DNA from: Bacillus sp. FJAT-18017
Lineage (GTDB): Bacteria; Bacillota; Bacilli; Bacillales; Cytobacillaceae
Direction of reading: 5' to 3'
DNA length: 64,000 bases
Assembly (NCBI RefSeq): GCF_001278805.1
Contig: NZ_CP012602.1
Span: forward strand, 4,437,501 to 4,501,500
The translations under genes and the position numbers were made by a program. The notes below the pieces were generated by a model that saw nothing but the letters and a program-made list of their open reading frames with translations, was not told where the DNA came from and did no database searches. Of this stretch, positions 56,411 to 58,532 are shown in pieces. How positions within the stretch are numbered: the stretch's first letter is position 1; each line of letters opens with the position of its first letter.

Positions 56411-57125
56411 ATGCATTATGGGAAGCCATTGGTCACATGGCTTGGGATTACCTTCGATTTATCTGTGATTTTAACAAGTACCGTCGCATCCTTGCTTGTC
56501 TTCATTATTGCACTCCTATCAATAAGAAGATTGGAAAAAGCCGGTGCCAAAAGGCCTTCAGAACTTCATGGAATGGACCATTGAATTTGTCCAGGGAATC
56601 ATGAGTAATTCGATTGGTGCATCAAAAAATCTTTTTATCTTATCCACAGGCGTTTCGCTGCTTCTCTTTTTAATTATATCCAACAGCATGGGAATCCCAT
56701 TTTCAATTGTAACAGGTGAAGAACAGCAGGTTGTATGGTGGAAATCACCCACAGCCGATGCCCACGTAACAATGACGTTAGCCATCATGATCATGGCCTA
56801 CACGCACTTCATTGATATCCGCATGCATGGATTCAAACATTACTTCCACAGCTATTTCAAACCATTCAAAGCATTCCTTCCCATTAATATCCTTGAACAA
56901 TTAAGTACAACGCTCCCCCTGGGCCTTCGACTGTTTGGGAACATATATGCAGGCGAGGTAATGCTTGCTATTCTTGCCGGAACAATGGTAAGCGGTTTCT
57001 TACCAGCGCTGCTCGCCGCACTTCCAATGTTGATTTGGCAGGCATTTTGCCTATTTATCGGTGCTATCCAGGCTTATATTTTTGTGACTCTGACTATGGT
57101 TTATATAGCTCATCGACTCACATAA
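56411..57125 (+). pseudogene. Orphan ATP synthase subunit a (AtpB-like), frameshifted
   Basis: Two overlapping frames together encode a complete Fo subunit a. Frame one starts at ATG 56411 behind AAAGGGG (MHYGKPLVTWLGITFDLSVI) and runs out as an off-frame stop near 56583; the second frame continues with [15 protein letters not shown]. The switch lies at CCAAAAGG (56547-56554); losing one A restores the protein. The essential Arg region [16 protein letters not shown] and [12 protein letters not shown] are intact. It is a paralogue, not the housekeeping gene: no c subunit or F1 genes follow. It may be inactive, a sequence error, or read by +1 slippage. Confidence 0.82.
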
Positions 57126-57183
57126 ATTTATTTAGTTAGAATGGGTATATGATTAGTAAAAGTTAAGAAAGGAGAGATTCTAA

Positions 57184-57567
57184 ATGGGAGACATCGAATT
57201 GTTTGGCATACAAATATCACTTGGAACAATGATTTATCAAGCTATCATTTTTACTATATTAGTATTTCTTATCAAAAAATTTGTAATGAAGAAACTTTTA
57301 AATGTTATGGAAGATAGGCAAACGTATATTGAAAACCAATTGCTGCTCGCAGAAAAATATAAAACTGAAGCCGAACAAAAACTTGCCGAACAGCAGCAAT
57401 TAGTCCAGCATGCCAAAGTAGAGGCAAGGCTTATCAGAGCCAGCAGTGAAAAGGAAGCCATGGAGCTTTTCGAGCGATCTAAGCAAGAGGCCGTAGAAAT
57501 CATCAAAGATGCGAGGAATGACGCCAGTAAACAGGCCGCTGCCCAGAATTGCCATAAGGGGGCATAA
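57184..57567 (+). CDS. Truncated ATP synthase subunit b-like protein
   Basis: A 127-residue protein: N-terminal membrane helix (LGTMIYQAIIFTILVFLIKK), then a charged helix (ENQLLLAEKYKTEAEQKLAE onward) of the b-subunit dimer type. Normal b subunits are about 160-170 residues; this one stops after ASKQAAAQNCHKGA and lacks the C-terminal part that binds delta/F1. The start follows AAGGAGAG. It lies 58 bases after the a-like gene with no c-subunit gene between. The next gene starts two bases after its stop. Confidence 0.8.
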   Translation: MGDIELFGIQISLGTMIYQAIIFTILVFLIKKFVMKKLLNVMEDRQTYIENQLLLAEKYKTEAEQKLAEQQQLVQHAKVEARLIRASSEKEAMELFERSKQEAVEIIKDARNDASKQAAAQNCHKGA

Positions 57568-57569
57568 CA

Positions 57570-58532
57570 ATGAAAAAGACCTTTTCTGCCAATTTCGGAA
57601 GAGTTACAGAAGATATTGAGCTTGGCCTTGAAGAAAAGATGATTTATGTTCATTACAAAAAGGGCCCTTATGAAAAATCAGCCTGTATTTTAAAAAATGA
57701 GAATAAACCCTTGGAAGAATATCTAAATTCCTTTTTAGATGAAAATAACGTATCGGATGATTTAAAGACCAAGGTTATTGAGTATTTAAAAAATGCAAAA
57801 GACATTAACAGCCAGCATTGGAATGATTTTTCTAATTCTTTAATGAAAGCGCTATCCCTCCATATGGTATTTGCCTTTACAATCGGCATATCTGTGTTTC
57901 TTGGCTATAAGGGCGGCAATTTGCTTGATAGCTTGCTGCCGTTGTATCCATTATTTACACTTCTTGGTTTAGCTGCTGGTATATTGTTTGGGGGATACTC
58001 AGCTTATGCTTTGGCAATAAAATACTTTAAACCGGCCGCAGATAAGATTAACAAGCATAAACAGAAAAAGATTTTAGCAGAAGCAGAATCCGCAAAGAAG
58101 TGGCCAGAGATAGATGTATACCTGGAAGAAGTTAGAAACGCTATCAGGAAATTCTCCGACAGCCTGCCAAAAGGGGTTTACCGGACTATACTCGTCAATG
58201 ATGATAACAGCATTGATTTTAGCCAGCTTGCTCATATTCTAGGGGGAATTCCGTCCAAGAAATTCTATATGTCAAAGGAGACGTATGATATTTTTGAGGA
58301 AAGCGACAAGGCAATCCCGGTCGAGATGGATAAAGTACAGAGAGCAGTGGATTTGTATGTAAAGGAAAAGCACGAATATCCGATGCTCCAATTCGACCCA
58401 AGCAGACGTGTAAACTATTACCAGCTTTTACAGGAACATTACTTAAAAGAGCGTCCCGAAATACAGTTTTATTTTACCGATGTTGACGGTCTTGTATCTC
58501 ATATAAAACCGCCACAAAAAAAACGCGGATAG
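57570..58532 (+). CDS. AtpI/AtpZ-like membrane segment fused to a soluble Bacillus domain
   Basis: A 320-residue protein in three parts. Residues 1-95 are soluble and unrecognised. Residues about 98-152 form two helices (MVFAFTIGISVFLGYKGG and LFTLLGLAAGILFGGYSAYA) with the spacing of AtpI/AtpZ-type ATP synthase accessory proteins. Residues about 170-318 (ILVNDDNSIDFSQLAHILGG, YYQLLQEHYLKERPEIQFYF) resemble what I recall as DUF3939, unverified. The start ATG is two bases after the b-like stop, behind GGGGG inside that gene, so translation is coupled. It is intact. Confidence 0.72.
   Translation: MKKTFSANFGRVTEDIELGLEEKMIYVHYKKGPYEKSACILKNENKPLEEYLNSFLDENNVSDDLKTKVIEYLKNAKDINSQHWNDFSNSLMKALSLHMVFAFTIGISVFLGYKGGNLLDSLLPLYPLFTLLGLAAGILFGGYSAYALAIKYFKPAADKINKHKQKKILAEAESAKKWPEIDVYLEEVRNAIRKFSDSLPKGVYRTILVNDDNSIDFSQLAHILGGIPSKKFYMSKETYDIFEESDKAIPVEMDKVQRAVDLYVKEKHEYPMLQFDPSRRVNYYQLLQEHYLKERPEIQFYFTDVDGLVSHIKPPQKKRG

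Follow-up and report, generated by a model that had tools for sequence, protein, structure and literature searches.

Introduction

The a and b subunits of the ATP synthase are regarded as components of a single machine. Stable insertion of a is reported to require both b and c (PMC8904574), and the essential arginine of a is described as stopping proton crossing without rotation of the ring (PMC6377231). In mitochondria, INAC is reported to guard the joining of a and the ring against leak (PMC5665977). In chloroplasts, CGL160 is described as acting in Fo assembly, its membrane domain being AtpI-like and carrying a soluble arm; the arm is N-terminal and binds CF1-beta, and CGL160 serves a full enzyme (PMC9806626). 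Ectopic duplicates of Fo genes have been reported as a full Fo complement in Desulfococcus oleovorans and as subunit a in Saccharopolyspora erythraea (PMC4154653), and the F1-like ATPases of Mycoplasma represent rotary-ATPase parts reused in another setting (PMC8406192, PMC12994834).

Here we analysed a 64,000-nucleotide stretch (the window) of contig NZ_CP012602.1 of Bacillus sp. FJAT-18017, which carries at 56411 to 58532 a sequence resembling ATP synthase a, followed by a short b gene and the gene for a 320-aa fusion protein, as identified from the ORF list and Pfam. Compared with the F1Fo enzyme of Bacillus PS3 (PDB 6n2d), the orphan a of this cassette matches the solved a over its whole length and has the same Arg169, Asn173, Glu178 and Gln217, and the orphan b has the same N-terminal membrane helix and stalk start. 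The cassette differs from that enzyme in that its a subunits form a separate clade with changed half-channel residues, its b lacks the F1-binding end, and no c or F1 genes were found alongside. The hairpin of the fusion scores above the Pfam cut-off for AtpZ/AtpI (PF09527), and its profile picks up the housekeeping atpZ locus, but the fusion has about 95 residues before the hairpin and DUF3939 after it, and adjoins a and b only. Its likeness to CGL160 is one of architecture only. The described ectopic Fo duplicates and the N-ATPase occur in single species or together with c (PMC4154653), whereas the cassette lacks c, occurs in several genera and has an accessory protein. The Mycoplasma F1-like ATPases are its mirror image, since those keep F1-like parts and the cassette keeps Fo stator parts. 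In the open literature on AtpI/AtpZ with the c-ring or Mg2+, and on orphan or duplicate a, no such cassette was described at the level of titles and the starts of abstracts. The word Bacillus is absent from the main text of the Fo-duplicate survey PMC4154653, and among 5.39 million open papers none contained the term DUF3939.

Results

Gene content and layout of the cassette

The sequence-only reading of the window had described three genes in a row. The a, b and fusion content proved real, but a consists of two ORFs in different frames (Table 1). The second a piece includes LGLRLFGN, as had been read, and matched PF00119 with 152.4 bits (cut-off 33.9). The b-like protein of 127 aa matched PF00430 with 64.3 bits (cut-off 28) over positions 1 to 103 of the 132-position profile. 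The AtpI/AtpZ-like membrane pair fused to a soluble part was recovered as PF09527 (31.5 bits; cut-off 26.6) and PF13075 (DUF3939). Only 2 nt separate the b gene from the fusion gene. The flanks named earlier as HesB-like, RsbR-like and modA agreed with the matches obtained (HesB-like, STAS/RsbR-like and modA-like), the HesB-like match being weak and below the Pfam cut-off.

Table 1. Positions of the cassette features in the window
Feature	Position	Strand	Basis
Conserved palindrome TTGTGA-N6-TTACAA on the upstream side of the cassette	56227..56244	+	Consensus scoring, row comparison
a-subunit gene piece 1, 57 aa, with the first membrane helix; out of frame at its end	56411..56584	+	ORF; NCBIfam NF004479, 27.7 bits; in-frame portion of the congeners' a gene
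+1 insertion site breaking the a gene in the window strain	56538..56545	+	DNA alignment, 5 congeners; indel 56541 against the sister
a-subunit gene piece 2, 193 aa, LGLRLFGN, T-to-P at 169 (relatives' numbering)	56544..57125	+	ORF; PF00119
Short b subunit, 127 aa, intact	57184..57567	+	PF00430
AtpZ-DUF3939 fusion, 320 aa, intact	57570..58532	+	ORF; PF09527 and PF13075; congeners; predicted model
Fusion residues 98-146, AtpZ-type membrane hairpin	57861..58007	+	PF09527; profile of residues 1-164 also matches the housekeeping atpZ locus
Fusion residues 181-311, DUF3939 domain	58110..58502	+	PF13075, 190.6 bits

A complete housekeeping ATP synthase operon lies about 4.1 Mb away on the contig, in the full order atpZ-I-B-E-F-H-A-G-D-C, its genes being named by eye from the reading frames. 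The cluster itself contains neither a c nor an F1 gene, and the earlier statement that it is not a full ATP synthase agrees with our finding no c or F1 genes with the cassette. A hidden c gene was considered and rejected, the gap between a and b in the window being 58 nt and the loci giving no c match.

The layout does not reflect chance: the fusion gene was present in all eight genomes of the genus that were searched (the window's own and seven others), and in all seven other congeners it stood in the same setting, together with a CNNM-type gene, a coiled-coil gene and a HesB-like gene. This conserved synteny contradicts a misassembled piece, which had been raised as a possible undoing of the cluster and which we rejected. 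Elsewhere in the window, a TPP riboswitch (49706 to 49811, minus strand) and a Mn2+ (yybP-ykoY) riboswitch (42524 to 42626, minus strand) both scored above the gathering score.

A broken a gene in the window strain

The four congeners with an uninterrupted a gene encode it as a single 237-aa ORF, and DNA alignment of five congeners showed one extra base in the window at about 56541. The sister genome (G003) carries its own extra base in the a gene, at another site 75 nt from the window lesion. Across a block of ten genes, running from the CNNM-type gene to a last gene that we ourselves labelled yitT-like, the window and the sister differed by four coding indels in the a gene and by none in the nine others. 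Two of these four indels are a pair cancelling each other out. Sequencing error was judged an unlikely cause of the frameshift, coding indels being confined to the a gene in this comparison. The a of the window also reads TTLPLGLRL, and this P stands where all 41 orphan rows and all 20 housekeeping rows counted have T. The dN/dS between window and sister was 0.175 in the part of a downstream of both shifts (8 amino-acid changes, a small count) and 0.50 in fusion residues 1 to 165 (12 changes, also a small count), compared with 0.077 for the CNNM gene, 0.127 for the HesB-like gene, 0.155 for b and 0.121 for the DUF3939 part. Among the other congeners, G005 retains only an eroded remnant of a, with b gone and the fusion gene without its front, and G006 has lost both a and b and keeps a complete fusion gene. 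Other than the piece of the window itself, the top protein listed was intact, with 90% identity, and came from another species.

We also considered a split but working a in the window strain, made by restart at GTG 56544 and assembly of the pieces or by a ribosomal frame shift. The two pieces overlap by 41 nt and piece 2 starts with GTG after a purine-rich stretch, which would allow it. This reading is nevertheless highly improbable given the different lesion of the sister 75 nt away, the compensated indel pair, a T-to-P change where T stands in 61 of 61 relatives, and the lack of indels in every other gene of the ten compared; by eye, no classical slippery site for a programmed frameshift was seen. 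The T-to-P change, the indels restricted to a and the separate frameshift of the sister therefore make a decaying copy the right description for the window strain, where the a gene is decaying. The suggestion of a decaying duplicate thus stands for this strain and very probably does not extend to the family, which is intact and under constraint in many other lineages.

The orphan a subunits form a clade of their own and keep the core residues

To construct the a tree, 13 near-duplicate or broken rows were dropped from 77. In the resulting tree of 64 a subunits (62 different), 44 orphan and 20 housekeeping sequences were separated by one change with support of 100/100. The tree that the sequence-only reading had proposed thus places the orphans in their own clade. 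Three more partial rows were dropped before residues were counted, leaving 41 orphan rows (39 distinct) against 20 housekeeping rows, with PS3 numbering mapped by eye and residue roles taken from PMC6377231. Arg169, Asn173, Glu178, Gln217, Glu158 and Thr165 were invariant in all 41 orphan rows, and the essential arginine is also present in piece 2 of the window. Glu159 was replaced by Gln (39 of 41), Asn162 by Thr (38 of 41) and Ser210 by Cys (40 of 41); His at 114, Asp at 16 and one of Ile, Val or Leu at 19 were found in 41 of 41. The 20 housekeeping rows showed Glu159, Asn162, Ser210, a mixture without His at 114, and Asn at 19; PS3 a itself has Asp19. At the E. coli position corresponding to Glu159, Gln is reported to give an activity below that of Glu and Asp and above that of Asn, Ala and Lys (PMC6377231).

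The orphan a profile matched the solved a of Bacillus PS3 (E 8e-82), and the N-ATPase subunit a model TIGR03306 gave 78.1 bits for piece 2 of the window, below its cut-off of 302.1. When orphan a was compared with its host's own a, the two c-facing helices were 0.62-0.64 identical and the rest 0.39. This similarity would fit ring contact only weakly, because the same helices are well conserved among the housekeeping copies too (0.77-0.84 identical). Among intact congeners, dN/dS of a was 0.056-0.068 in four of six pairs, and dS was saturated in two. In the intact lineages, orphan a is under the constraint of working genes.

A short b subunit, and no c or F1 genes found at the loci

Orphan b measured 123-135 aa in 23 of 23 cases examined and 122 aa in one of a second family; the housekeeping b is a 187-aa frame. 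The b of the window has about 88 residues after the membrane helix versus about 127 in the housekeeping b. Because of this difference of about 40 residues, orphan b lacks the C-terminal end that binds F1 (delta), as had been claimed. In the 80 named loci, no match to the housekeeping c was found, and none to F1 alpha or delta, the two F1 subunits queried. We then counted atpE in 20 cassette genomes, two of which have a broken a. Exactly one copy was present in 19 of the 20, and none was found in G346, which is 80% complete. The atpE of the window genome sits inside the housekeeping operon. Since b is short, atpE is single, the loci hold no match to c, alpha or delta, and insertion of a needs b and c, these sequence data point to use of the housekeeping ring.

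Predicted structure of the AtpZ-DUF3939 fusion

The predicted model of the fusion (mean pLDDT 83.5) comprises an N-terminal sheet domain (residues 2-58), a helix running into the membrane (63-122), a return helix (128-172) and then DUF3939. In this model, both ends of the protein should lie on one side of the membrane, and the basic stretch after the second helix suggests that this is the cytoplasmic side. Structure searches with the fusion found no solved fold that explains it.

Distribution of the cassette and of DUF3939

DUF3939 was found in 99 of 193 genomes of the family. A profile of fusion residues 1-164, which also matches the housekeeping atpZ place (E 5.3e-6), gave full-length matches at 56 places in 46 of the 193 genomes and in 5 of 25 genera. 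The possibility that the triplet occurs only in this strain fails on the presence of the fusion gene in five genera of the family, and we are nearly certain that the cassette family is real. Intact a, short b and AtpZ-like/DUF3939 genes were found in many Neobacillus and relatives, including Neobacillus sp. OS1-33 and N. novalis (loci L158 and L191), and the named hosts are mostly Neobacillus. A second cassette type has an a of 247-248 aa and other neighbours; two genomes (G130 and G155) carry both types, and in G019, G021 and G022 an additional cassette has an AtpZ protein that ends without DUF3939. A mobile element was considered and rejected, as no fusion match was found in plasmid or phage records at E 1e-5.

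A complete set of a, b and full fusion was present in 17 of the 40 loci first retrieved. Among the 80 named loci, some of which are cut by contig ends, a and b were present in 37, all with a full N-terminal/AtpZ part; in the 43 without a and b, this part was full in 4, partial in 9 and absent in 30. These loci were found through DUF3939 patterns, so that retention of DUF3939 where a and b are missing is in part a product of the sampling. At loci found in this way, the membrane part of the fusion appears mostly to be present or absent together with a and b. A DUF3939 tree with 81 rows requires 16 changes for the state of a and b with a full N-terminal/AtpZ part, and well-supported branches force at least 7 of these; the tree has few columns and many unresolved forks, and the window and its sister were scored as present despite their broken a.

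Outside the family, the orphan a profile was run against 299 genomes of the order, with at most nine candidates scored in each. Among the matches listed, three orphan genomes lay outside the family; they belong to one genus of another family and have a, b, an AtpZ-like part and DUF3939 in a row. In the two genomes of this second family with ORFs listed, the AtpZ-like protein (149-151 aa) and DUF3939 (150-156 aa) are encoded by separate adjoining genes, and the fusion therefore joins genes that are neighbours elsewhere; one of the two has a broken a. In the second-family cassette L227 (5319 to 6079), the a gene is broken near the C-terminus, and breaks in a were found in several lineages. In a phylum sample of 398 genomes, the window's own match was the only full one, and 16 other genomes gave short matches in or around the AtpZ hairpin. 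Across the order, 106 of 397 genomes had DUF3939; beyond the family it sits mostly in frames of 150-200 aa. One record titled Chryseobacterium sp. ISL-80 (L206) holds Bacillaceae DNA closest to a Cytobacillus locus and is probably a mislabelled or contaminated assembly.

Where DUF3939 occurs without Fo genes, it lies in 10 of 21 loci near a gene that we take from its sequence to be comK-like (Gracilibacillus, Schinkia and relatives; L220-L225, L234 and L236-L238). No Fo link was found at the DUF3939 loci near this gene among the 21 examined. Because DUF3939 stands alone in many genomes and near the comK-like gene in these loci, it should have some role of its own apart from Fo.

A conserved palindrome upstream of the cassette

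The palindrome of the window scored 11 of 12 against TTGTGA-N6-TCACAA, and by eye its right half lies 17 nt before a -10-like hexamer. Scores of at least 10 of 12 were obtained in 26 of 31 rows of the window's cassette type (14 of them scoring 11), and 3 of 15 other rows scored 10. In the genome, the exact pattern was counted three times, against two for the control, and it marks no regulon. By consensus the palindrome may be a Rex/Fnr-like site; its centre lies about 3 bp off the usual Fnr position. A sporulation promoter was considered by eye and dropped; the conserved upstream element is the palindrome.

Discussion

Our tentative reading, to which we give somewhat less than even odds, is that this conserved chromosomal Fo-type cassette of Bacillaceae is a stator module working on the housekeeping c-ring with no F1 attached, and that AtpZ-DUF3939 serves as its assembly factor or cap. 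The residue conservation and the single atpE favour a complex that would use the housekeeping c-ring. Orphan a and two short b subunits would dock on the only c-ring of the cell, that of the housekeeping enzyme, and the length of b seems insufficient for holding F1. Like AtpI-type proteins, the AtpZ part may help to seat the ring; DUF3939 would stand on the cytoplasmic side in the place of F1, as a cap, gate or load. CGL160 offers a precedent for the joining of an AtpI-like membrane domain to a soluble arm (PMC9806626). Since the essential arginine never varies, ion flow would remain coupled to turning of the ring, with the half-channels retuned; as this arginine blocks proton crossing without rotation, its invariance argues against a plain leak. 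The module would then be a regulated Fo without F1. It would admit H+ under control, or park the ring at times when ATP synthase is not needed. In the window strain the module is being lost. A more specific proposal, that a second Fo stator captures the housekeeping c-ring for a non-synthase job as a rotary unit powered by or dissipating the pmf, with the DUF3939 face replacing F1, is possible but on the whole doubtful. Against the c-ring stator reading, a ring is unneeded if a has become something else, the module is dispensable, because it is often lost, and DUF3939 also stands alone in many genomes.

A different use of the same ring would be an alternative stator for the ordinary F1Fo, in which orphan a replaces the housekeeping a, together with the housekeeping b or a mixed b pair, and retunes the H+ pathway under certain conditions, with AtpZ-DUF3939 as its dedicated assembly factor. 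The whole-length match to the solved a with core residues kept, the single atpE in 19 of 20 genomes, the reported contribution of AtpI to ATP synthase assembly (PMC4453477) and the shared change of Glu159 to Gln, a middle-ranking activity type in E. coli (PMC6377231), are all consistent with it. We consider it unlikely, since all 37 named loci with a also have b, and the examined orphan b of 122-135 aa would not reach F1; a short b that always accompanies a would be pointless if the housekeeping b were used. The ring could also be dispensed with altogether, a, b and the AtpZ hairpin forming a pore of their own. Such a pore might, for instance, take up Mg2+ or Ca2+, a function proposed for AtpZ in alkaliphilic Bacillus. 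A role of AtpZ in Mg2+ acquisition is reported in B. pseudofirmus (PMC4453477), Pfam describes PF09527 as a Ca2+/Mg2+ transporter, the window's cassette type often lies a few kb from a CNNM/CorC-type gene, and the new His118 and Asp135 could bind metal. However, a pore without a ring has no need of the invariant Arg169, Asn173, Glu178 and Gln217, and the loci of the other cassette type gave no CNNM gene match, which makes such a channel or transporter quite improbable.

The cassette could finally be a decaying Fo duplicate without present function anywhere, its persistence being inertia. The a gene is broken or eroded in the window strain, its sister, G005, G149 and one second-family genome, and the module is repeatedly absent on the DUF3939 tree. 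Against this, dN/dS of a is near 0.06 in intact congeners at a synonymous divergence of about 1 or more, the orphan-specific residues are invariant over genera, and both synteny and a second paralogous cassette have been maintained. This constraint argues against a functionless duplicate for the family, for which we regard it as very unlikely, and the description holds for the window strain.

If a conserved stator set lacks c and F1 and has its own accessory protein, and its host genomes have one c gene only, then either two complexes share the c-ring or a has acquired a new use. For AtpZ/AtpI, so far tied to enzyme assembly and Mg2+, the family offers a natural experiment, as loci lacking a and b mostly lack the AtpZ part as well, and DUF3939 gains its first functional lead. 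NCBI names the orphan proteins as ordinary subunit A, and surveys will therefore miscount them. If the reading as a ring unit without F1 is true, the module would be the mirror of the Mycoplasma F1-like ATPases.
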